The notes under the pieces were generated by a model. It was not told the origin of the DNA, made no database searches, and saw only the letters and a program-made list of their open reading frames with translations. From Verrucomicrobiota bacterium (lineage in GTDB: Bacteria; Verrucomicrobiota; Verrucomicrobiia; Palsa-1439), in the NCBI GenBank assembly GCA_016871575.1, contig VHCW01000026.1:1-52117 (forward strand): DNA of 52,117 nucleotides, read 5' to 3'. Every line of letters starts with the position of its first letter. Position 1 is the stretch's first letter. Below are positions 36,860 to 46,628 of this stretch, in pieces. Both the position numbers and the translations under genes were made by a program.

Positions 36860-37849
36860 ATGAGTTTAAGAATCAATCTCGACAAGAAAGCCAAGATGCC
36901 TGCCTATCGGCAGATCATTCAGCAGGTGACTGCGCTGGTTCGCGATGGGGAAATCAAGCCGGGAGACAAACTGCCGACAGAACGCGACTTGGCCTTCAAA
37001 CTCAAAGTCGCGCGGGGAACCGTCAAGAAAGCATATGAATCGCTGGTGCACGACAATGTAATCGAGGTTTCACGGGGACGCGGCAGTTTTGTTTCGACCC
37101 GACAAGACATCCACGTGGGAGACCGCAAGGAACGCGCTGTCGCGGCAATCGAACGCCTGATTCTCGACTTGGAGAAACTCAAGTTTTCAAGCCGTGAGAT
37201 TCGCACGCTGCTGGATCTCAAACTGATGGAAAGGGAGGAACGAATGGACAGCTTGCACATCGCTGCCGTGGACTGCAATCCCGAGGCGCTGGCCATTTTC
37301 GAACGCCAACTGACCCATCTCTACCAAGTCAAACTGACCCGAGTGCTGCTGGACGACCTCAAACAGGATCCGTCCCCGCAAGGGCGCATGGCTCAGTTCG
37401 AATTAGTCCTGACCACTTCGACTCACTACAGCGAAGTCATGGGCATTTTGCCCAAACTTCGCGACCGCTTGCTTCAAGTAGCGGTCTCACCCAGTCAAGA
37501 CACAATCATTGAAATGGCCGGCCTCAGCCCGGCCCAACGGATGGGGGTCATTTGCGAGAGCCAGGTTTTCCGCCGCATCGTGAAAAACAAACTCAAGGAT
37601 CTTGAACTGCTTTCCGCAAATCTTCCCTGTCTGCTCATTAGCGAAGAATCGCGTCTTCCTGAGTTTCTCGAAGACTTGGATGTGGTCTTCGTGCCGCCGG
37701 ATTATCAAATTCAGCGCAGGCGTGAAACCGTCTATGCCGTCCAAAATTTTATGCAGCGCGGCGGGCGCGTGATTGCATTCGATTATCAGATTGAACGCGG
37801 CTCGCTGCTGCACGTGGAGGAACGCATCCGCAAGCTATTGAACCGTTAA
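36860..37849 (+). CDS. GntR family transcriptional regulator of the glutamate operon
   Basis: A 329-residue DNA-binding protein. Residues 12-80 form the GntR winged helix: PAYRQIIQQVTALVRDGEIK, PGDKLPTERDLAFKLKVARG and TVKKAYESLVHDNVIEVSRG with RGSFV. The next segment (80-130) is a helical linker. Residues 130-329 form an effector/oligomerisation domain that I cannot place in a named subfamily with certainty. It has alternating strands (LHIAAVDCNPEALAIFERQL, FELVLTTSTHYSEVMGILPK) like a periplasmic-binding or YhcF-type fold, so the length exceeds simple YtrA regulators. Only 6 nt separate it from glmS, so it heads the operon and is probably autoregulated through the operator at 36809-36821. 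The inducer may be glutamate or a pathway intermediate. Confidence 0.88.
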   Translation: MSLRINLDKKAKMPAYRQIIQQVTALVRDGEIKPGDKLPTERDLAFKLKVARGTVKKAYESLVHDNVIEVSRGRGSFVSTRQDIHVGDRKERAVAAIERLILDLEKLKFSSREIRTLLDLKLMEREERMDSLHIAAVDCNPEALAIFERQLTHLYQVKLTRVLLDDLKQDPSPQGRMAQFELVLTTSTHYSEVMGILPKLRDRLLQVAVSPSQDTIIEMAGLSPAQRMGVICESQVFRRIVKNKLKDLELLSANLPCLLISEESRLPEFLEDLDVVFVPPDYQIQRRRETVYAVQNFMQRGGRVIAFDYQIERGSLLHVEERIRKLLNR

Positions 37850-37855
37850 ACCGTC

Positions 37856-38266
37856 ATGCAGAATCCTACTATTGTTTTGGGCGTAATCGGGGCGGATTGT
37901 CATTCCGTAGGGAACAAGATTCTTGAAATCTTCTTCTCTGGCGAAGGATTCAAGGTCGTCAATCTCGGCGTCATGGTCTCCCAGTCCGAATTCATTGACG
38001 CCGCCATCGAGACCAGTGCCAGCGCGATCCTGGTCTCTTCCCTCTACGGGCACGGAGAGATTGACTGTCAGGGCTTGCGTGATCGCTGTATCGAAAAGGG
38101 GTTGGACTCCATCCTTCTGTATGTCGGCGGAAATCTGGTCGTGGGCAAGACACCGTTTGACGAAGTGGAAGAAAAGTTCAAGGAGATGGGGTTTGACCGC
38201 GTGTTTCCACCGGATGCTGATCTCAAACAGGTGGCAGCATTCTTACAAGCCGAAGTTCAACCATGA
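37856..38266 (+). CDS. glmS: Glutamate mutase (methylaspartate mutase), B12-binding S subunit
   Basis: A 136-residue cobalamin-binding subunit of adenosylcobalamin-dependent glutamate mutase, which interconverts L-glutamate and (2S,3S)-3-methylaspartate. The base-off/His-on motif DxHxxG is [12 protein letters not shown], with Asp14, His16 (the cobalt ligand) and Gly19. Further hallmarks are [37 protein letters not shown] and [20 protein letters not shown]. Length (136) equals the clostridial subunit within a few residues. It is the first enzyme gene of the operon and its stop overlaps glmL (ATGA). Not to be confused with glucosamine synthase, which shares the symbol. Confidence 0.95.
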
Positions 38267-39675
38267 CCCCGGCAAGCGTCATCAGCATTGACATCGGCTC
38301 CACGTTCACCAAAGGGGCCTTGTTCTCGCTTGCTCCAACACGTCCGTCCGTGATTCGTCGTGCCGCATGTCCGACAACTCCAGACAACCTGACGCGCGGT
38401 TTCAGCCGGGTTCTGGCCATGCTTTGCGAACTGCCGGCGGACACGCCGCTTCATGACATTCGACCGGCTGCACCGGTGCGCATCTCTTCATCAGCCAAAG
38501 GTGGACTGGCCATTGCGGCCATTGGCTTGGTTCCGGACCTCACCCTGCAACTGGCCCGTCTGGCCGCCATGTCGGCCGGAGGCAAGGTCGTGAAAAGCTT
38601 TGCCTACACGCTCACGGAGTCTGACATCGCCGGGTTGGAACACGCCCGTCCAGACATTGTTCTTTTCTGCGGCGGCACCGACGGCGGCAACACAGCGTAC
38701 GTCATCGAAAACGCCGCGCGTCTTGCCGCTTCGCGGTTCGACGGGCCGATCATTTACGCCGGCAATCGTGCGGCGGCCGACCGCGTGGCCGAAATCCTTC
38801 GTCCTCGCCCATTGACCATCGTGTCGAATCTCATGCCCGAGATCAACGTGTTGAATCTCGAACCTGTCCGCGAGAAGATCCGGGAGATTTTTCTTCAAGC
38901 GATCGTCGCCGGGAAGGGGTTGTCCGAAATCGTTCGACGGTTTGAGACGGGCGTTCGTCCAACGCCTCTTGGCGTTTACGAACTGATGGAAGCCATTCCG
39001 CGTGTCCGTCCCGATTGGGACAACCTCTGCGCGGTTGATTTGGGCGGCGCCACAACCGATTTTTATTCCAACACGGACTCTTTTGGGGAAACCGACTCGG
39101 TCGTGCTCAAAGGCATCCGTGAGCCACGGCTGAAACGAACCGTGGAAGGCGATTTGGGTCTTCGCATCTCGGCGGCTGCCCTTGGGGAGTCGGCGGCAGA
39201 CTATTTCGCCGGTCCCCTAAACGAAGCCGGTCTGCGCGAGTACGTCGCGCGGCTGATCGAGGAACCCGGCCACATCGCTGTCACGGATTGCGAGAGAAAC
39301 ATGGACGACATTATGGCCGAGGCTTGTGTGTATCATGCCGCCCGTCGTCATGCCGGGTCGTTCCGCGAAACCTACACGCCGCAAGGCCGGGTGCATATCC
39401 AGACCGGGAAAGATTTGCGGCGGGTGCGCCGGGTGATCGGCAGTGGCGGTTATCTGGCAAGTTGCAAGGACAATGGCATCATGCGCCGCGCCTTCCGCAG
39501 GCTCAGCGAGACGGGACCGGAGGTTGTTCTGGCTCCGGAGGATCCCGTTTTCTACGCGGATGCTGACGGTCTTTTCCCGCTGCTCGGCAATCTGGCTGCG
39601 ATTGAACCCGAAGTGGCTGTGGCGCTGGCTTTGGAGAATTTGAAACCACTGGAACAGGAGAAAACACCTTGTTGA
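38263..39675 (+). CDS. glmL: Glutamate mutase reactivating protein / accessory protein GlmL (MutL)
   Basis: A 470-residue ASKHA-fold ATPase of the GlmL/MutL family, thought to reactivate glutamate mutase by exchanging damaged cobalamin. The phosphate-1 loop is [18 protein letters not shown], the second half has [20 protein letters not shown], and an adenosine-type motif is [13 protein letters not shown]. The segment [20 protein letters not shown] is typical of the family. It lies between the S and E subunit genes exactly as in clostridia. It overlaps glmS by 4 nt, and its stop overlaps the TTG start of glmE by 7 nt. Confidence 0.93.
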
Positions 39676-41117
39676 AAAACAAAAAAATTGAAATGACGGA
39701 GTTCAACTCCATTCGCAAAGAGGTTCTGACGGCTTGGCCGACCGGCAAGGATGTCCGTCTTGAAGATGCCTTCCGTTATCAACGCGCAATTCCTGCGGCC
39801 AAGAATTTTGCTGTCGCCATGAAGAACGCATTGGATCGCGGGCAGATCCTGCTTCAGCCGCGAGCCGGTGTCGCCTTGGTGGATGAGCATATCAAACTCT
39901 TGAAACACTTGGAAACCGAGGGCGAAGCCGACCTCTTGCCGACGACGATTGACGCTTATACCCGGCAGAATCGTTATGAGGAGGCCGCGCGTGGCATTGA
40001 GAAATCCATCGCCGCCGGGGCCTCGCTGCTGAATGGTTTTCCCGCTGTCAACCACGGCGTGCCCGGCTGCCGCACGGTGGTTGAGGCGGTCTCCAAGCCG
40101 ATTCAGGTGCGGCACGGCACACCGGACGCCCGGTTGCTGGCTGAAATCACTCTGGCGGCCGGGTTCACCAGTTTTGAGGGCGGCGGCATCTCCTACAACA
40201 TCCCCTACGCGAAAAAAGTCCCGCTCGAACAATCCATCCGCGACTGGCAGTACGCGGACCGGCTCGTCGGCCTGTACGAGGAGAATGGCATCCGCATCAA
40301 CCGCGAGCCGTTTGGTCCGCTGACGGGAACGCTGGTGCCGCCGTTCATCAGTCATACCATCGGTATCATCGAAGGGCTTCTGGCTCTCGAACAGGGCGTC
40401 CGCTCGATCACGCTGGGCTACGGGCAGGCCGGCAACATTCTTCAGGACATTGCCGCCATCACATCGCTGCGCGAACTGGCGCACGATTATTTTCGCGCCG
40501 CCGGTCATTCGGACTACGAGTTGACGATTGTCTTTCATCAATGGATGGGCGGTTTTCCCGAAGACGAAGCGAAGGCGTTTTCCGTCATCGGTTGGGGGTC
40601 GGTCGTCGCCGCGTTTGCGAAGCCGGAGAAGATCATCGTCAAGACGCCGCACGAAGCGATGGGCATTCCCACTCGCGCCGCCAACGCGCAGGGTCTCAAG
40701 GCCACCCGCCAGATCATCAGCATGCTGACCGACCAGCGCCTGTTCGACGCCCTTTCCATCCGCCAAGAAGTGGACGTCATCAAACACGAGGTCAAGAATC
40801 TCATGGACAAAGTGCTGGAACTCGGCCGGGGCGACGTGGCGGCGGGGACGGTGGCCGCCTTCCAAGCCGGTGTGCTGGATGTTCCGTTTGCGCCTTCGAT
40901 CTACAATGCCGGCAAAGTCATGCCCGTTCGCGACAACGAGGGGTTTCTCCGCATTTTCCAAAAGGGCAACCTGCCGTTGGACAATGAGATTCTGGCCTGG
41001 CATCGCAGCAAACTGTTGGACCGCGCGCGCGCCGAGGGACGCGAAATCTCGTTCCAGATGGTGACCGACGACATCTACGCCATCAGCAAAGGGAAACTCA
41101 TCGGGAGACCCAAATGA
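39669..41117 (+). CDS. glmE: Glutamate mutase (methylaspartate mutase), catalytic E subunit
   Basis: A 482-residue TIM-barrel catalytic subunit that binds glutamate and pairs with GlmS and adenosylcobalamin. Family segments are ALDRGQILLQPRAGVALVDE, HIKLLKHLETEGEADLLPTT, GFPAVNHGVPGCRTVVEAVS, PIQVRHGTPDARLLAEITLA and EGGGISYNIPYAKKVPLEQS. The length matches clostridial MutE (about 483). The start is TTG at 39669: AGGAG lies 8 nt before it, while the first ATG (39693) has no ribosome-binding site and would cut the conserved N-terminus. Its stop overlaps the ammonia-lyase start (ATGA). Confidence 0.95.
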   Translation: MLKNKKIEMTEFNSIRKEVLTAWPTGKDVRLEDAFRYQRAIPAAKNFAVAMKNALDRGQILLQPRAGVALVDEHIKLLKHLETEGEADLLPTTIDAYTRQNRYEEAARGIEKSIAAGASLLNGFPAVNHGVPGCRTVVEAVSKPIQVRHGTPDARLLAEITLAAGFTSFEGGGISYNIPYAKKVPLEQSIRDWQYADRLVGLYEENGIRINREPFGPLTGTLVPPFISHTIGIIEGLLALEQGVRSITLGYGQAGNILQDIAAITSLRELAHDYFRAAGHSDYELTIVFHQWMGGFPEDEAKAFSVIGWGSVVAAFAKPEKIIVKTPHEAMGIPTRAANAQGLKATRQIISMLTDQRLFDALSIRQEVDVIKHEVKNLMDKVLELGRGDVAAGTVAAFQAGVLDVPFAPSIYNAGKVMPVRDNEGFLRIFQKGNLPLDNEILAWHRSKLLDRARAEGREISFQMVTDDIYAISKGKLIGRPK

Positions 41118-42376
41118 AAATCCAGCAAGCCCTGTTCTCGCCCGGAAAATCCGCGTTCTTCTTCGATGACCAGCGCGCCATCAAAAGCGGCGCGACTCAC
41201 GATGGATTCACGTATCGCGGAAAACCGCGCACACCCGGTTTTCCGCGTGTCCGCATGGCCGGCGAGTGCATTTCGGTGTTGCTGCTTCTCGAGAACGGAC
41301 AAGTAGCCGTCGGCGATTGCGCGGCGGTGCAGTATTCCGGCGTTGGCGGACGCGACCCGCTGTTCTTGGCGCGCTCGTATTTGCCCTTCCTTCGCCGGCA
41401 GGTCGCGCCGTTGTTGGAAGGACGGACAGTTGAATCGTTTCGTTCCATGACCGCGTGGATGGAATCGCTCAGCTTCCGCAGCAAACGGCTGCACACGGCC
41501 ATCCGCTACGGTCTTTCCCAGGCGTTTCTTGACGCCTGCGCCCAAGCCAGTCGCCGGCTTCCCTGCGAGGTCATCGCCAAGGAGTATGGCCTGCCAGTCA
41601 TCGCCCGGCGCGTGCCCGTTTTCGGTCAGTCCGGCGACAATCGCTACGAGAACGTGGACAAGATGATTCTCAAGGAGGTTGACGCCCTGCCGCACGGGTT
41701 GATCAACAACATCACGGAGAAGCTGGGCCGACGTGGTGAAAAACTGCGCGCGTACATCCGTTGGATTCGACGGCGCATTCACGAGCTGCGCGCGCGCCCG
41801 TCCCACCGGCCTGCCTTGCACATTGACGTGTACGGCACCATCGGCGCCGCGTTCGGGGGCGATGTCGGGCGGATCGCCGATTACCTAGCTTCGCTTGAAG
41901 CGGATGCCGGTGAACTGCCGCTGTACATTGAAGGGCCGGTGGACATGGAGGAGAAACTGCGCCAAATGGAAACGCTTCTGCGAATCCGCACGCTCTTGCG
42001 GCGCAAAGGTTCCGCCGTCAAAATTGTCGCCGACGAATGGTGCAATACGCTCGACGATATCAGGGAGTTTACCGATGCCGGCGTCTGCGACATGGTTCAG
42101 ATCAAGACGCCGGATCTCGGCGGCATCCAAGACACCGTCGAAGCCGTTCTCTACTGCCGCGCCCACGGCATGGAGGCGTACCAAGGCGGCACCTGCAATG
42201 AAACCGACGTGTCCGCCCGCGCCTGTGTGCAAGCCGCGATGGCCACCCGTCCCGCACGGATCCTCGCCAAGCCGGGCATGGGCTTCGACGAAGGCTTCAG
42301 CATCATCAACAATGAGATGGAACGAACCATCGCCATCCTCAAACAGCGGAAAACAAGCACGGAGAACAACACATGA
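41114..42376 (+). CDS. mal: 3-methylaspartate ammonia-lyase
   Basis: A 420-residue enolase-superfamily lyase that removes ammonia from 3-methylaspartate to give mesaconate. The alignment register to the Clostridium tetanomorphum enzyme is such that the known residues fall at the same numbers: His194 (DALPHGLIN), metal ligands Asp238 (LHIDVYGT), Glu273 (YIEGPVDM) and Asp307 (KIVADEWCN), and catalytic Lys331 (VQIKTPDLGG). The late EAYQGGTCNETDVSARACVQ also matches. It is therefore very likely active. It overlaps both neighbours by 4 nt. Confidence 0.96.
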   Translation: MKIQQALFSPGKSAFFFDDQRAIKSGATHDGFTYRGKPRTPGFPRVRMAGECISVLLLLENGQVAVGDCAAVQYSGVGGRDPLFLARSYLPFLRRQVAPLLEGRTVESFRSMTAWMESLSFRSKRLHTAIRYGLSQAFLDACAQASRRLPCEVIAKEYGLPVIARRVPVFGQSGDNRYENVDKMILKEVDALPHGLINNITEKLGRRGEKLRAYIRWIRRRIHELRARPSHRPALHIDVYGTIGAAFGGDVGRIADYLASLEADAGELPLYIEGPVDMEEKLRQMETLLRIRTLLRRKGSAVKIVADEWCNTLDDIREFTDAGVCDMVQIKTPDLGGIQDTVEAVLYCRAHGMEAYQGGTCNETDVSARACVQAAMATRPARILAKPGMGFDEGFSIINNEMERTIAILKQRKTSTENNT

Positions 42377-43740
42377 ATCGCACCTCTGACGAGTTTCGCA
42401 TTTTGTCCGCCACCGCCATCCTTGGCTACGGCTTCCCGGAGCAGTCTTTCCAGAACGGACTTCGCAAGAAACCGCACCTGATCGCAGCCGACGCCGGTTC
42501 CACGGATCCGGGACCGTACTACCTGGGTGTCGGCAAATCGTTCACCAGCCGGACCGGAGTCAAGCGCGACCTCCGCCTGATGATTCGCGAGGGCGTGCGT
42601 CGTGGTATTCCGGTGGTCATCGGCTCCGCCGGCGGCTCGGGCGCGAGGCCGCACGTGGATTGGTGCGAGGCGATTATCCGTGAGATTGCCCGCGAGGAAA
42701 GACTCCGGTTCACACTGGGCATCATCTATTCCGACGTGCCCAAGAGCCTTGTCGGGCGCGCGCTGGCGCGAAAAGCCGTCAAGCCGTTGGCCTGCGTGCC
42801 GCGACTGACGCGGGAGGCGCTGGATGCCACGACTCATTTGGTCGCCCAGATCGGCGTGGAGCCGTTCATCCGGGCGCTTGACCGGAAATGTGACGTCATC
42901 CTGTGCGGTCGCTCCTACGACCCGGCGGTTTTCGCCGCGTTGCCCATTCGCTTGGGATACGATCCCGGCCTCGCGCTGCATTTGGGTAAGATTCTGGAGT
43001 GCGCCGCCATCGCCGCCACGCCGGGTTCCGGAGCGGACTGCGCTTTCGGCACGTTGAAGAAGGACTCCTTCATTGTGGAGGCGCTCTCCGATGTGCGACG
43101 GTTCACGCCGCAATCCACCGCAGCCCACACGCTTTACGAGAAATCGGACCCAGTCCATCTGCCCGGTCCGGGCGGGGAAATTGATCTGACCCAGTGCTCG
43201 TTCACCGATATCGGGGGCGGTCGCGTGGAAGTGCGCGGCAGTCGTTTCGTGCCAACCCGGAAGAACTGGGTCAAAATCGAAGGCGCACGGCCGGTCGGCT
43301 TTCGGTCTGTCAGCATCGCCGGTATTCGGGATCCCATGATGATTCGCCAGATCGATTCGATCATCGAGGCGGTTCAGCGGCAAGTGAAGAGTCTGCTTCG
43401 ACGGGAACGGCTCCGGGGCGAGGTGTTCTTTCACGTTTATGGTCGCGACGGCGTGATGGGCCGGATGGAGCCGGTAAAGAAAACGCGAAGCCACGAGCTG
43501 TGTATGTTGCTCGATGCCGTGGGCGAGACCGAGGAGGCGGCCGAGACGCTGCTTTCGCTCACGCGTTCGACGCTGTTGCACTACGGTTATCCCGGCCGCG
43601 TCGCGACGGCGGGCAATTTGGCGTTTCCGTTTTCGCCATCGGATGCAACAATGGGCGTGGTGTATGAGTTTTCCGTGTATCACCTGCTGGAGTTGGATGA
43701 GCGCCGGTTATTTCCGGTGTATGTTCGCAACATATCGTAG
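42373..43740 (+). CDS. AtuA family (DUF1446) protein of the glutamate operon
   Basis: A 455-residue protein of the acyclic terpene utilisation AtuA/DUF1446 family. Recognisable parts are ILSATAILGYGFPEQSFQNG, LIAADAGSTDPGPYYLGVGK, PVVIGSAGGSGARPHVDWCE, CDVILCGRSYDPAVFAALPI, SDPVHLPGPGGEIDLTQCSF and FRSVSIAGIRDPMMIRQIDS. AtuA is needed for citronellol/geranyl breakdown but its chemistry has not been shown; related proteins occur near glutamate mutase genes in other bacteria. Its presence with DUF4387 suggests a two-subunit enzyme or carrier acting on a pathway acid or CoA ester. No cofactor motif is decisive. Confidence 0.88.
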   Translation: MNRTSDEFRILSATAILGYGFPEQSFQNGLRKKPHLIAADAGSTDPGPYYLGVGKSFTSRTGVKRDLRLMIREGVRRGIPVVIGSAGGSGARPHVDWCEAIIREIAREERLRFTLGIIYSDVPKSLVGRALARKAVKPLACVPRLTREALDATTHLVAQIGVEPFIRALDRKCDVILCGRSYDPAVFAALPIRLGYDPGLALHLGKILECAAIAATPGSGADCAFGTLKKDSFIVEALSDVRRFTPQSTAAHTLYEKSDPVHLPGPGGEIDLTQCSFTDIGGGRVEVRGSRFVPTRKNWVKIEGARPVGFRSVSIAGIRDPMMIRQIDSIIEAVQRQVKSLLRRERLRGEVFFHVYGRDGVMGRMEPVKKTRSHELCMLLDAVGETEEAAETLLSLTRSTLLHYGYPGRVATAGNLAFPFSPSDATMGVVYEFSVYHLLELDERRLFPVYVRNIS

Positions 43741-43753
43741 AGAAGGATTCGAC

Positions 43754-44065
43754 ATGAAGAAAAACATATTGAAAGTGGCACGGGTGATCCGGTCGAAGAA
43801 CGCCGGTCCCTACGAGCTGACGCTGGACATCATGTTCAAGAGGCCGCGCGATTTCGAGATGTTCCGGAAGCGCCGGCTGATCACAGGGGCGAAGATTGCG
43901 CGCCTGTACGGCGTTCCCGTTTCGCATATTCTGAAAGTGGTCTGGTTTGAACCGAGTCATGCGGTGAAAATCACGATGAAACGCTGGATCCCATCGGGTG
44001 CAACGGGCGAGTCGGATGTCTATGGCGCCCAACAACACGCCCCGCTGTTGAACCTCTCGTTTTGA
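43754..44065 (+). CDS. DUF4387 family small protein
   Basis: A 103-residue protein wholly covered by DUF4387: LKVARVIRSKNAGPYELTLD, IMFKRPRDFEMFRKRRLITG, AKIARLYGVPVSHILKVVWF and EPSHAVKITMKRW. DUF4387 genes commonly follow AtuA/DUF1446 genes, or are fused to them, so the two probably form a complex. It follows AtuA by 13 nt, with AGAAGGA as Shine-Dalgarno. Function is unknown. Confidence 0.88.
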   Translation: MKKNILKVARVIRSKNAGPYELTLDIMFKRPRDFEMFRKRRLITGAKIARLYGVPVSHILKVVWFEPSHAVKITMKRWIPSGATGESDVYGAQQHAPLLNLSF

Positions 44066-44076
44066 GGAGATGCGCA

Positions 44077-45024
44077 ATGAACACACGGTTTCCCGGCCAA
44101 AATGAGACTTTGATCTACGCAGCCTATTACGCGCCGCGCGGCCGCCAACGGCTCTATCGCGTGGCCGCACAGCTTTCGCAGCGGTATCTCTCACCCGGCG
44201 ATTTGCTCATCGGCATCATCGGCGCCGAAGGATCGGGGAAATCCACGCTCATCCGTGGGCTTTTCCCGGGCTTGGAACTCACCAATGACGATGATGGCGT
44301 CAATGTCACCCCTGCCCCACTCCACTCGTTTTCGCCGGAGGATCATTTTTCCGGGCACACCTTCCACATTGATATCCGCTACGAACTGGCCTTCAAACAG
44401 AAGCATCAACTCGTGTCGCTCATCAAACAGGCAGTCGCCCATGGCCGGCGCGTGGTGGTCGAGCACTTCGATCTCATCTACGACGCGCTCGGCTACAATG
44501 CCCAGGTCATTTTCGGCATCGGCGAGGAAATCATCGTGGTGAGACCTTCCGTGTTCGGCCCGTTTCCCGCCAACATCAAGTCGGTGGTGGACAAAACCAT
44601 CAAGTTCCGCCTGATGGCACACTCGGGGGAAGACATTACCTCCATGATTCTGGCGCGCGATTACGGTTACAGACCTTCCGCGGCTCATTCCGACGTGAAA
44701 CACGGCTTCGTAATCGGTTTTCCCGAAACACCGGACATCAACTTGGACGAGTTGGAGGCCAAGATCAAAGCGGTCATTGCCCAAGACGTGCCCATCTGCA
44801 TTGCCGGCGAAGATCGCATCCGCATCGGCGATCAAACCATTGATTGCACCGGAACGCGGACTCACGTGAAGTCGTCCGGTCAAATCGAGAATTTCCGCCT
44901 CCTCAAGGACTACCGGCACAACCTCATCACCGGCGAATACATGCTCGTGGGGATCGTGGGACGCAAGGAAATCATCGGGTTCGAAAGCATCAACGAATTC
45001 AAAGAATTCAACCAACAGGAGTGA
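44077..45024 (+). CDS. P-loop NTPase with C-terminal segment reminiscent of AlaRS editing domain
   Basis: A 315-residue cytoplasmic protein with two parts. Residues 44-170 are a P-loop NTPase: Walker A IIGAEGSGKSTL (Gly49-Thr57) and a likely Walker B GRRVVVEHFDLIYD in which Glu129 and Asp132 follow the strand. Residues 175-275 contain RLMAHSGEDITSMILARDYG, RPSAAHSDVKHGFVIGF and DCTGTRTHVKSSGQI. The histidines His204 and His209, with Cys257 and His263, recall the zinc-binding HxxxH and CxxxH of the alanyl-tRNA synthetase second additional domain, though spacing differs. Similar proteins appear in glutamate-fermentation operons of other bacteria, in my recollection. An energy-dependent chaperone or cofactor loader for AtuA/DUF4387 or the mutase is possible. 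GAGGAG stands 8 nt before the ATG. Confidence 0.8.
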   Translation: MNTRFPGQNETLIYAAYYAPRGRQRLYRVAAQLSQRYLSPGDLLIGIIGAEGSGKSTLIRGLFPGLELTNDDDGVNVTPAPLHSFSPEDHFSGHTFHIDIRYELAFKQKHQLVSLIKQAVAHGRRVVVEHFDLIYDALGYNAQVIFGIGEEIIVVRPSVFGPFPANIKSVVDKTIKFRLMAHSGEDITSMILARDYGYRPSAAHSDVKHGFVIGFPETPDINLDELEAKIKAVIAQDVPICIAGEDRIRIGDQTIDCTGTRTHVKSSGQIENFRLLKDYRHNLITGEYMLVGIVGRKEIIGFESINEFKEFNQQE

Positions 45025-45026
45025 GC

Positions 45027-46628
45027 ATGCCAAGTTTCAAATACGTTCCGATGTTCCCGACGGGGAAAGACACCGCTCGATACCGCCGGTTGGACGGCGA
45101 ATTTGTCGCCGTGCGGCGCGAGAGCGGACGGACCGTGCTCCGCGTCTCTCCCCGCGCCTTGTCCATGCTGGCAGAGACTGCTTTCCACGATGCCGCATTC
45201 TATTTTCGCGCGCGCCACTTGGAACAGTTGGCCGCCGTCGCCGCCGACCGTCGGGCGTCCGACAATGACCGGTTTGTCGCGTATTCGTTGCTGCAGAATG
45301 CTGTGATCGCCGGCGATGGCATCCTGCCGGTCTGCCAGGACACGGGCACTGCCACGGTCGTCGCCGCGCGCGGCTACAACGTCGTCACTGCCGGTAACGA
45401 TGCTGCCTGGTTGAGCCGCGGGGTTCGAGCAGCCTACACCCGTTACAACCTGCGCGCCTCCCAGTTGGCGCCGCTGGGGATGTTGGAGGAATGCAACACC
45501 GGCGACAATCTTCCCGCCCAGATTGACATTCAGGCCGTGCCGGGAAGCGAGTACCGATTCCTCTTCATCGCCAAGGGCGGCGGCTCATCGAACAAGACGA
45601 TGTTGTTTCAGGAGAGCAAAGCCCTGCTCGCCAGCGAAGATCGCCTGCTTGCCTTCCTCGAAGAAAAAATCCGAACCATCGGCGTCGCCGCCTGTCCGCC
45701 GTATCACCTGGCCGTTGTCATCGGCGGCACATCGCCCGAAACGACGCTCAAGACTGTCAAGCTTGCCAGCGCCGGCGGCCTGGACACACTGACGACTCGG
45801 CCCACAGGACGCCCCCAAGCTTACCGCGATATTCCTTGGGAAAAGAAAATCCTCGCTGTGACGCGCAAGCTGGGGTTGGGCGCACAGTTTGGCGGCCGGC
45901 ATTTTGCGCTGGATGTGCGGGTCATCCGAATGCCGCGTCACGCCGGCTCCTTGCCGGTGGGGATCGGCGTCAGTTGCAACGCGCACCGCAACATCTCCGG
46001 AACAATCAACCGGCACGGCGTCTTTTTGGAACAACTGGAGACGCGACCAGATCGTTTTCTGCTTGGCCTGCCGGTCCCGGATACGACTGTTGGCGTCCCG
46101 GTGAATTTGGATCAGCCGATGGACCGGATCGCTTCTGAACTGGCACGCTATGCTGTGGGCACGCGACTGAGTTTGAGCGGCACGCTCATCGTCGCGCGCG
46201 ACGTGGCGCACGCGCGGCTCCATCAACGCCTCCGCAAGGGAAAACCCTTGCCGGAGTATTTTCTCAAGCACGCTATTTATTATGCCGGGCCGGCGCGCAC
46301 TCCGAAAGGGTTGCCCAGCGGCAGTTTCGGGCCGACCACTGCGCAGCGCATGGATTCCTACGTGGCCGATTTCATGAAACACGGCGCTTCTCGCATCATG
46401 CTTGCCAAGGGCAACCGCAGTCCCGCCGTGGCGGAAGCCTGCCGCCAACACAACGGATTTTACCTGGGAACAATCGGCGGCGCTGCCGCGCTCGTGGCCA
46501 GCCGTCACATTGTCTCGTCCGAGATGGTGGATTTCCCTGATCTCGGCATGGAAGCCGTCCGCCAACTATGTGTTCGCAATCTTCCCGCCTTCCTGCTGGG
46601 CGACAACCGTGGACGGACGTTGTACTGA
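45027..46628 (+). CDS. Class I fumarate hydratase family protein, probable mesaconase
   Basis: A 533-residue [4Fe-4S] hydro-lyase of the FumA type (alpha and beta parts fused). Cluster ligands appear to be Cys103 (GILPVCQDTGTATV), Cys223 (IGVAACPPYH) and Cys317 (GIGVSCNAHRN). Other marks are LEECNTGDNLPAQIDIQAVP, IAKGGGSSNKTML and, in the beta part, YYAGPARTPKGLPSGSFGPT, TTAQRMDSYVADF and MLAKGNRSPAVAEACRQHNG. Class I fumarases of such operons hydrate mesaconate to (S)-citramalate, the step after methylaspartate ammonia-lyase; fumarase activity is equally possible from sequence alone. Two nt separate it from the P-loop gene. It ends the operon, tail-to-tail with the peroxiredoxin gene 13 nt away. 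Confidence 0.9.
   Translation: MPSFKYVPMFPTGKDTARYRRLDGEFVAVRRESGRTVLRVSPRALSMLAETAFHDAAFYFRARHLEQLAAVAADRRASDNDRFVAYSLLQNAVIAGDGILPVCQDTGTATVVAARGYNVVTAGNDAAWLSRGVRAAYTRYNLRASQLAPLGMLEECNTGDNLPAQIDIQAVPGSEYRFLFIAKGGGSSNKTMLFQESKALLASEDRLLAFLEEKIRTIGVAACPPYHLAVVIGGTSPETTLKTVKLASAGGLDTLTTRPTGRPQAYRDIPWEKKILAVTRKLGLGAQFGGRHFALDVRVIRMPRHAGSLPVGIGVSCNAHRNISGTINRHGVFLEQLETRPDRFLLGLPVPDTTVGVPVNLDQPMDRIASELARYAVGTRLSLSGTLIVARDVAHARLHQRLRKGKPLPEYFLKHAIYYAGPARTPKGLPSGSFGPTTAQRMDSYVADFMKHGASRIMLAKGNRSPAVAEACRQHNGFYLGTIGGAAALVASRHIVSSEMVDFPDLGMEAVRQLCVRNLPAFLLGDNRGRTLY

Follow-up and report, generated by a model that had tools for sequence, protein, structure and literature searches.

A TsaE-like P-loop NTPase joined to a SAD domain is a companion of GlmE in glutamate fermentation gene clusters

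Gene content of the locus

The window, by which is meant the whole 52,117-nucleotide stretch of Verrucomicrobiota DNA that was analysed (contig VHCW01000026.1), carries a set of glutamate fermentation genes in the order GntR - glmS - glmL - glmE - mal - AtuA - DUF4387 - NTPase-SAD - fumarase. The NTPase-SAD gene is the subject of this study.

36860..37849, + strand, GntR-family regulator (PF00392)
37856..38266, + strand, GlmS, glutamate mutase B12 subunit (TIGR01501)
38263..39675, + strand, GlmL/MutL accessory ATPase (TIGR01319, PF13941)
39669..41117, + strand, GlmE, glutamate mutase epsilon subunit (TIGR01503; match to the C. cochlearium structure)
41114..42376, + strand, Mal, methylaspartate ammonia-lyase (TIGR01502)
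42373..43740, + strand, AtuA-like (DUF1446) protein (PF07287)
43754..44065, + strand, DUF4387 protein (PF14330)
44077..45024, + strand, NTPase-SAD protein, 315 aa from ATG to TGA, homologues found
45027..46628, + strand, class I fumarase, probable mesaconase (PF05681/PF05683; mesaconase role per PMC4682846)

These genes either overlap or are separated by 2-16 bases, with overlaps of a few bases in four successive gene pairs from glmS through AtuA, which is consistent with a single operon. The NTPase-SAD reading frame starts 11 bases past the DUF4387 stop codon, with a ribosome site of the AGGAG type ahead of it, and its end is separated by 2 bases from the gene for the class I fumarase. An Rfam scan of the window gave no match above threshold and thus no B12 riboswitch was found upstream. 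An earlier note on this DNA had placed the gene within a glutamate operon, and profile matches together with the neighbourhoods at other loci bore this out; the reading frame, the Walker A motif GAEGSGKST and the residues His204, His209, Cys257 and His263 had likewise all been located correctly.

The conversion of glutamate via 3-methylaspartate and mesaconate to citramalate is established, and so is the mesaconase function that class I fumarases have in clusters of this kind (PMC4682846, PMC8473912). AtuA (DUF1446) and DUF4387 genes were also seen downstream of mal in distant glm operons including that of E. coli (window 42373-44065, L165). What becomes of citramalate in E. coli has been stated to be unknown (PMC4682846), and AtuA and DUF4387 are therefore candidates for the missing citramalate-cleaving step.

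An N-terminal TsaE-like P-loop NTPase domain

The following domains and motifs were recognised in the NTPase-SAD protein.

44116..44556, + strand, N-terminal P-loop NTPase domain, residues 14-160, TsaE-like (AlphaFold2, Foldseek, weak Pfam match)
44221..44247, + strand, Walker A GAEGSGKST, residues 49-57 (G49, G52, G54, K55 and S56 in 103/103 homologues)
44365..44373, + strand, H97-x-D99, invariant in 103 homologues, putative functional motif
44461..44466, + strand, E129-H130, invariant, putative Walker B-like motif at the end of strand 125-129 in the AlphaFold2 model
44557..44970, + strand, C-terminal SAD/AlaX/ThrRS-editing-like domain, residues 161-298 (AlphaFold2, Foldseek, hhalign)
44620..44634, + strand, HSAED/HSGED, residues 182-186, equivalent of the SAD HxxxH (hhalign against HSCSH of ThrRS, conservation)
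44686..44703, + strand, H204-SDVK-H209 (HxxxxH), aligning past the helix and not on HxxxH
44845..44865, + strand, C257-TGTRT-H263, equivalent of the SAD CGGTH/CAGPH with two additional residues (hhalign, Pfam tRNA_SAD at 257-280, conservation); CTGTRTHVKSSG begins at Cys257

Searches of Pfam, NCBIfam and PDB sequences with the protein returned weak matches only, most of them to P-loop proteins. A full-length AlphaFold2 model (pLDDT 85) had as its best Foldseek matches in the PDB the TsaE structures 1htw and 6n9a (E 1.9e-5 to 3.8e-5, with 1htw at 1.9e-5), the superposition having an rmsd of 6.9 A and a TMt of 0.56. The Pfam TsaE model matched the window protein over profile positions 7-108 at 15.8 bits, below its cut-off of 26.6, and matched 27 of 29 members weakly and likewise below the cut-off. 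A profile comparison by hhalign with TsaE scored 54 against at most 26 for shuffled controls, with an aligned part of just 37 residues around Walker A. The host genome has a separate bona fide TsaE (G000:C89), and TsaE (YjeE), the P-loop ATPase of tRNA t6A synthesis, differs from the NTPase-SAD protein in having no SAD domain. The N-terminal domain is accordingly described as TsaE-like and is not classed as TsaE. Matches to ABC transporter ATPases were mostly confined to the Walker A region (~25-45 residues) and fell below the cut-off, and neither the signature motif nor a full ABC domain was found.

The sole other fusion of a P-loop and a SAD domain that was encountered is a 556-aa TGS-SAD-uridine-kinase-like protein (L204:953-2623). 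In proteins of this kind the SAD domain comes first, a TGS domain is present and the kinase belongs to a different subfamily, so that the domain order recorded here is the reverse of theirs. The NTPase-SAD protein has no TGS domain and no PRK/UDK match and does not belong with them, and hhalign between the two gave a probability of ~10% per domain. The SAD end of the L204 protein, DFCYGPLVPSSG, is without a Cys-x3-His pair.

A C-terminal domain of the SAD/AlaX/ThrRS-editing fold

An AlaRS-editing-like segment had been suggested from the sequence, with structure prediction as the means of checking it, and the suggestion held. Residues 161-315 were modelled alone with AlphaFold2 (no templates, pLDDT 81.5), and the best 14 Foldseek matches of this model in the PDB were all of the SAD/AlaX fold with a probability of 1.00, followed by a wide gap to the next match at E 0.3. 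The best 14 include AlaX-M (2e1b), AlaX (1wnu, 1v7o), ThrRS (1nyq, 6vu9, 1qf6 and 1tje, the last being the editing domain), together with an AlaX-like clostridial protein and two scaffolds designed with this fold. Profile comparisons by hhalign were made with ThrRS and AlaRS SAD alignments from the host and its relatives, each with 100 column-shuffled controls and a reversed control. The NTPase-SAD family scored 57.2 against ThrRS SAD (best shuffle 30.6, reversed 13.4) and 52.8 against AlaRS SAD (best shuffle 23.7, reversed 16.8). Pfam tRNA_SAD (PF07973) matched the window protein over residues 257-280 at 15.0 bits, below the cut-off of 24, and matched 24 of 29 homologues at E values up to 0.1. 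One homologue searched as a protein (L206) reached 24.9 bits against the curated cut-off of 24, and two homologous places exceeded this cut-off in a genome scan. The C-terminal segment is a genuine tRNA_SAD/AlaX/ThrRS-editing fold.

The ThrRS profile alignment placed HSGED (182-186) on HSCSH and CTGTRTHV on CAGTHV, and it is from this alignment that H182, D186, C257 and H263 are predicted to form a metal site as its ligands. The exact HxxxH and CxxxH zinc signature is absent; its equivalents H182xxxD/E186 and C257x5H263 are conserved among 103 homologues. Zinc ligands had earlier been proposed at His204, His209, Cys257 and His263, and the latter two were retained. His204 and His209 were rejected, as H209 varies in 24/103 homologues and the profile alignment puts HxxxH at 182-186 (His182/Asp186), and the residues so named have the spacings HxxxxH and CxxxxxH rather than those of the signature. 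The domain thus shares with SAD domains (PF07973) the order of elements and the Cys-His end, and differs from them in having HxxxD/E for HxxxH and CxxxxxH for CxxxH, in lying C-terminal to a P-loop NTPase with no synthetase attached, and in its genomic link to GlmE. To our knowledge, every SAD domain of known function acts on aminoacyl-tRNA.

Conservation was counted over 103 non-redundant homologues, with C257 and H263 scored on the 102 readable rows, and the motifs lie far above chance expectation. Residues K55, R178, H182 and E185 were invariant (103/103), D186 was Asp in 101 and Glu in 2, C257 was found in 102/102 and H263 in 101/102 with one Gln, and D206 and R261 were nearly invariant. 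H204 was kept in 100/103 homologues, H209 in just 79/103 with Ser, Asn or Arg in the others. Neither an unrelated fold nor a general loss of the His and Cys residues was therefore found, although the histidine pair differs from the one first named. The Prevotella nigrescens homologue (Bacteroidota, L164:11986-12930) has D186E, H204F and H263Q, and its SAD metal site is possibly decayed or altered. Masked stretches (X/N) occur within the homologue of L032, and likewise within citE/citF-like genes of L035 and L032.

Distribution and association with GlmE

A contig search found 30 homologues, from Aminicenantes, Riflebacteria, Planctomycetes, Spirochaetes, Myxococcota and Clostridia. The protein was carried by 6 of 195 genomes in the Verrucomicrobiota (phylum inferred) and by 74 of 398 in the clostridial phylum, where absences are slightly uncertain since scoring was limited to the top five candidates of each genome. 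Its occurrence is sporadic, as the gene was present in a single one of 11 genomes sampled within the family to which the window belongs.

GlmE was present in 49/50 clostridial carriers and in 2/30 non-carriers (Fisher p ~4e-18, kinship ignored), and in 6/6 carriers and 1/189 non-carriers of the Verrucomicrobiota (p ~1e-10, kinship ignored). The sole clostridial carrier lacking GlmE (G479) has the gene at a short contig end with a partial DUF4387 gene ahead of it. Outside the clostridial survey, GlmE, Mal or AtuA lay within the retrieved stretch at 32/35 loci. The gene is a nearly obligate companion of GlmE, and its near confinement to GlmE bacteria suggests that the protein probably serves that pathway. 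The reverse does not hold, as GlmE occurs without the protein in E. coli, G243, G257 and G151. The E. coli operon consists of glmSLE-mal-AtuA-DUF4387-symporter-fumarase-cobO without an NTPase-SAD gene. Glutamate mutase genes and Mal are present in E. coli, G243 and G151, with the protein absent from the stretches read, and the pathway is therefore not dependent on it. A 314-aa hypothetical protein upstream of glmS in E. coli was considered as a hidden homologue and rejected, its translation showing no resemblance.

Gene neighbourhoods and downstream routes

Four different downstream gene sets accompany the NTPase-SAD gene. An AtuA/DUF4387 and fumarase set was seen in the window and at most loci, a citrate-lyase-type CitFEDCXG set included CitG in L034 and CitXG in L035, SucCD-like and CitE-like genes were found in L027, and HgdB/HgdC-like and metallo-hydrolase genes in many Clostridia. 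In P. acidaminophilum (DSM 3953, protein WP_025436946.1) the gene lies between citC and citX; a replacement of the citrate lyase ligase CitC was rejected, since CitC is present in the same genomes and adjoins the gene in that organism. The constant across the downstream sets is GlmE. A survey of neighbourhoods had been proposed in the earlier note with GlmE and AtuA/DUF4387 among the expected partners, and of these GlmE was tracked closely while AtuA/DUF4387 was not constant.

The same survey bears on the idea that the protein loads or matures AtuA/DUF4387. In favour of this idea, the gene follows immediately after AtuA-DUF4387 both in the window and at most non-clostridial loci. Clusters with the NTPase-SAD gene but without AtuA/DUF4387 were found (L034, L103, L105, L106, L126 and P. 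acidaminophilum), and E. coli and G243 have AtuA/DUF4387 without the protein. These distributions largely refute the loading role, also put forward earlier, and we regard it as very improbable.

It is also conceivable that the protein is a small-molecule kinase or an ATP-dependent ligase or hydrolase of the pathway, in which a C4/C5 dicarboxylate or an amino acid bound to the SAD domain would be phosphorylated or activated by the P-loop domain. The Walker A, H97xD99 and E129-H130 motifs, together with R156-P157, which is likewise invariant among the homologues, suggest a catalytic NTP site, and a P-loop kinase is fused to SAD, in reverse order, in the TGS-SAD-uridine-kinase-like proteins. However, enzymes are known for all steps from glutamate to citramalate with no ATP step known to be lacking (PMC4682846), the downstream sets are of four kinds, the gene is absent in E. 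coli and no Pfam kinase match was obtained, so that such an enzymatic role appears distinctly unlikely.

In many Clostridia rph-rdgB-yfcE lies directly downstream, and no rph neighbour was seen outside Clostridia. In L135, L167 and L126 the order is murI - (glmS - glmL) - glmE - HgdB-like - HgdC-like - metallo-hydrolase, between gerM/murI and rph; the genomes of L135 and L167 have GlmE but no GlmS or Mal. Two clostridial genomes (L128, L129) have the NTPase-SAD gene as a tandem duplicate directly upstream of rph. A functional link to RNase PH was rejected as positional, given that the clostridial glm cluster is flanked by gerM/murI and rph and that the neighbour was seen in Clostridia only. 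Clostridial distance matrices, compared to see if the gene keeps step with GlmE or with the host, did not discriminate; the gene co-evolves with its neighbour rph too, so that GlmE does not stand out in the distance correlations.

Carriers in which a GlmE-like protein occurs without GlmS and Mal

Of 51 sampled clostridial carriers, 40 had GlmS and 41 had Mal. Nine carriers (G240, G252, G271, G284, G294, G323, G462, G486 and G510) have a GlmE-like protein and neither GlmS nor Mal by the NCBIfam models, and their NTPase-SAD motifs are intact wherever the sequence was read. Degenerate GlmE-like proteins with 31-34% identity were observed in clostridial genomes without GlmS/Mal (L157:8294-9508, L159, L160, L161, L168, L169). 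The closest solved structure to GlmE is the glutamate mutase epsilon subunit, and the PRAG, TRQN and RHG arginines are what we take to be the glutamate-binding claw of the C. cochlearium enzyme. In L157, L159, L160 and L161 the N-terminal and arginine-claw motifs are lost, and identity to the consensus is 52-55% over GlmE positions 401-480 versus 7-21% over 1-200. The loss of these motifs with retention of the C-terminal 80 residues makes a GlmE with a non-mutase function seem likely.

These four loci carry GntR - degenerate GlmE - NTPase-SAD triplets before rph, an arrangement in keeping with a regulatory ligand sensor in which the SAD domain would sense an amino acid and the NTPase would report it, the simplest genomes having GntR and the degenerate GlmE adjacent. 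The protein has no DNA-binding or signalling domain and a GntR gene is absent from many clusters, which leaves a sensor quite improbable.

The nine carriers also bear on trans-editing, in which the SAD domain would hydrolyse 3-methylaspartyl-tRNA or another pathway amino-acid ester and so protect translation, with the P-loop domain gating or recycling it. Such a role follows most directly from the fold, for AlaX-M, AlaX and the ThrRS editing domain are the closest solved structures, and from the conserved metal site, and the gene accompanies the early genes that make 3-methylaspartate whatever the downstream route, with the GlmS and Mal counts given above. It is at odds with the nine carriers, which by these searches are unable to make 3-methylaspartate, and with the E. 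coli operon that lacks the protein. The second His of HxxxH is moreover Asp/Glu and CxxxH is CxxxxxH, no recognisable tRNA-binding module was found in the protein, and the literature searched contained no report of 3-methylaspartate mischarging. The guard against 3-methylaspartate mischarging suggested in the earlier note is thereby weakened, and editing in general is retained as a rather unlikely but serious alternative. Its more specific form, an NTP-driven trans-editing factor acting as dedicated quality control by clearing tRNA or another acceptor charged with a pathway amino acid, is judged unlikely; we know of no editing enzyme that is tied to a fermentation operon or powered by a P-loop NTPase.

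Proposed role in the glutamate mutase step

There is little doubt that the protein consists of a TsaE-like P-loop NTPase and a SAD domain with conserved His182, Asp186, Cys257 and His263, and that it is a near-obligate companion of GlmE. The role that we favour, tentatively and at somewhat short of an even chance, is that of an ATP-dependent accessory factor of GlmE or the glutamate mutase step, since it is GlmE that the gene tracks, rather than GlmS, Mal, AtuA or a single downstream route, even where the GlmE-like protein is degenerate. The SAD domain would hold a small amino-acid-like or aminoacyl-ester ligand in its metal pocket, and binding and hydrolysis of ATP in the P-loop domain would be coupled to the docking of the protein on GlmE or the mutase complex and to its release, with the conserved C-terminal part of GlmE as the candidate docking surface. 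A possible precedent by analogy is the action of TsaE on the ASKHA proteins TsaB/TsaD, TsaE being a weak P-loop ATPase that docks on its partner complex and resets it (PMC9654439).

Several points count against an accessory role. The aminoacyl-tRNA activity of known SAD domains would be needless for it, the mutase already has GlmL as its accepted reactivating chaperone (PMC4682846), some glm operons, among them that of E. coli, lack the protein, and the distance correlations do not favour GlmE over rph. The NTPase-SAD protein shares the operon with GlmL/MutL and could plausibly act in an analogous way on the mutase. GlmL (Pfam MutL) is of the ASKHA type and not a P-loop/SAD protein.

Significance

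Neither Pfam nor NCBIfam has a model for the family, and the two annotated homologues that were found are both recorded as 'hypothetical protein'. A 2015 survey of glutamate fermentation clusters mentions no ATPase or P-loop protein (PMC4682846). The protein was not described in the literature searched, whose coverage largely excludes older clostridial papers, in which an earlier mention is possible. Both domains are known; what is new within that literature is the order in which they are fused, the change in the metal signature and the association with GlmE.

The methylaspartate route is textbook glutamate fermentation, and here a conserved gene is found in the majority of the sampled clusters from Clostridia and Verrucomicrobiota, as well as in clusters of Aminicenantes, Planctomycetes and Riflebacteria. 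If the quality-control role were true, the protein would be a quality-control enzyme dedicated to a catabolic pathway that makes the non-protein amino acid 3-methylaspartate. Either an ATP-dependent partner of glutamate mutase would have gone unrecognised, or a dedicated proofreading enzyme would be needed by anaerobes producing 3-methylaspartate.
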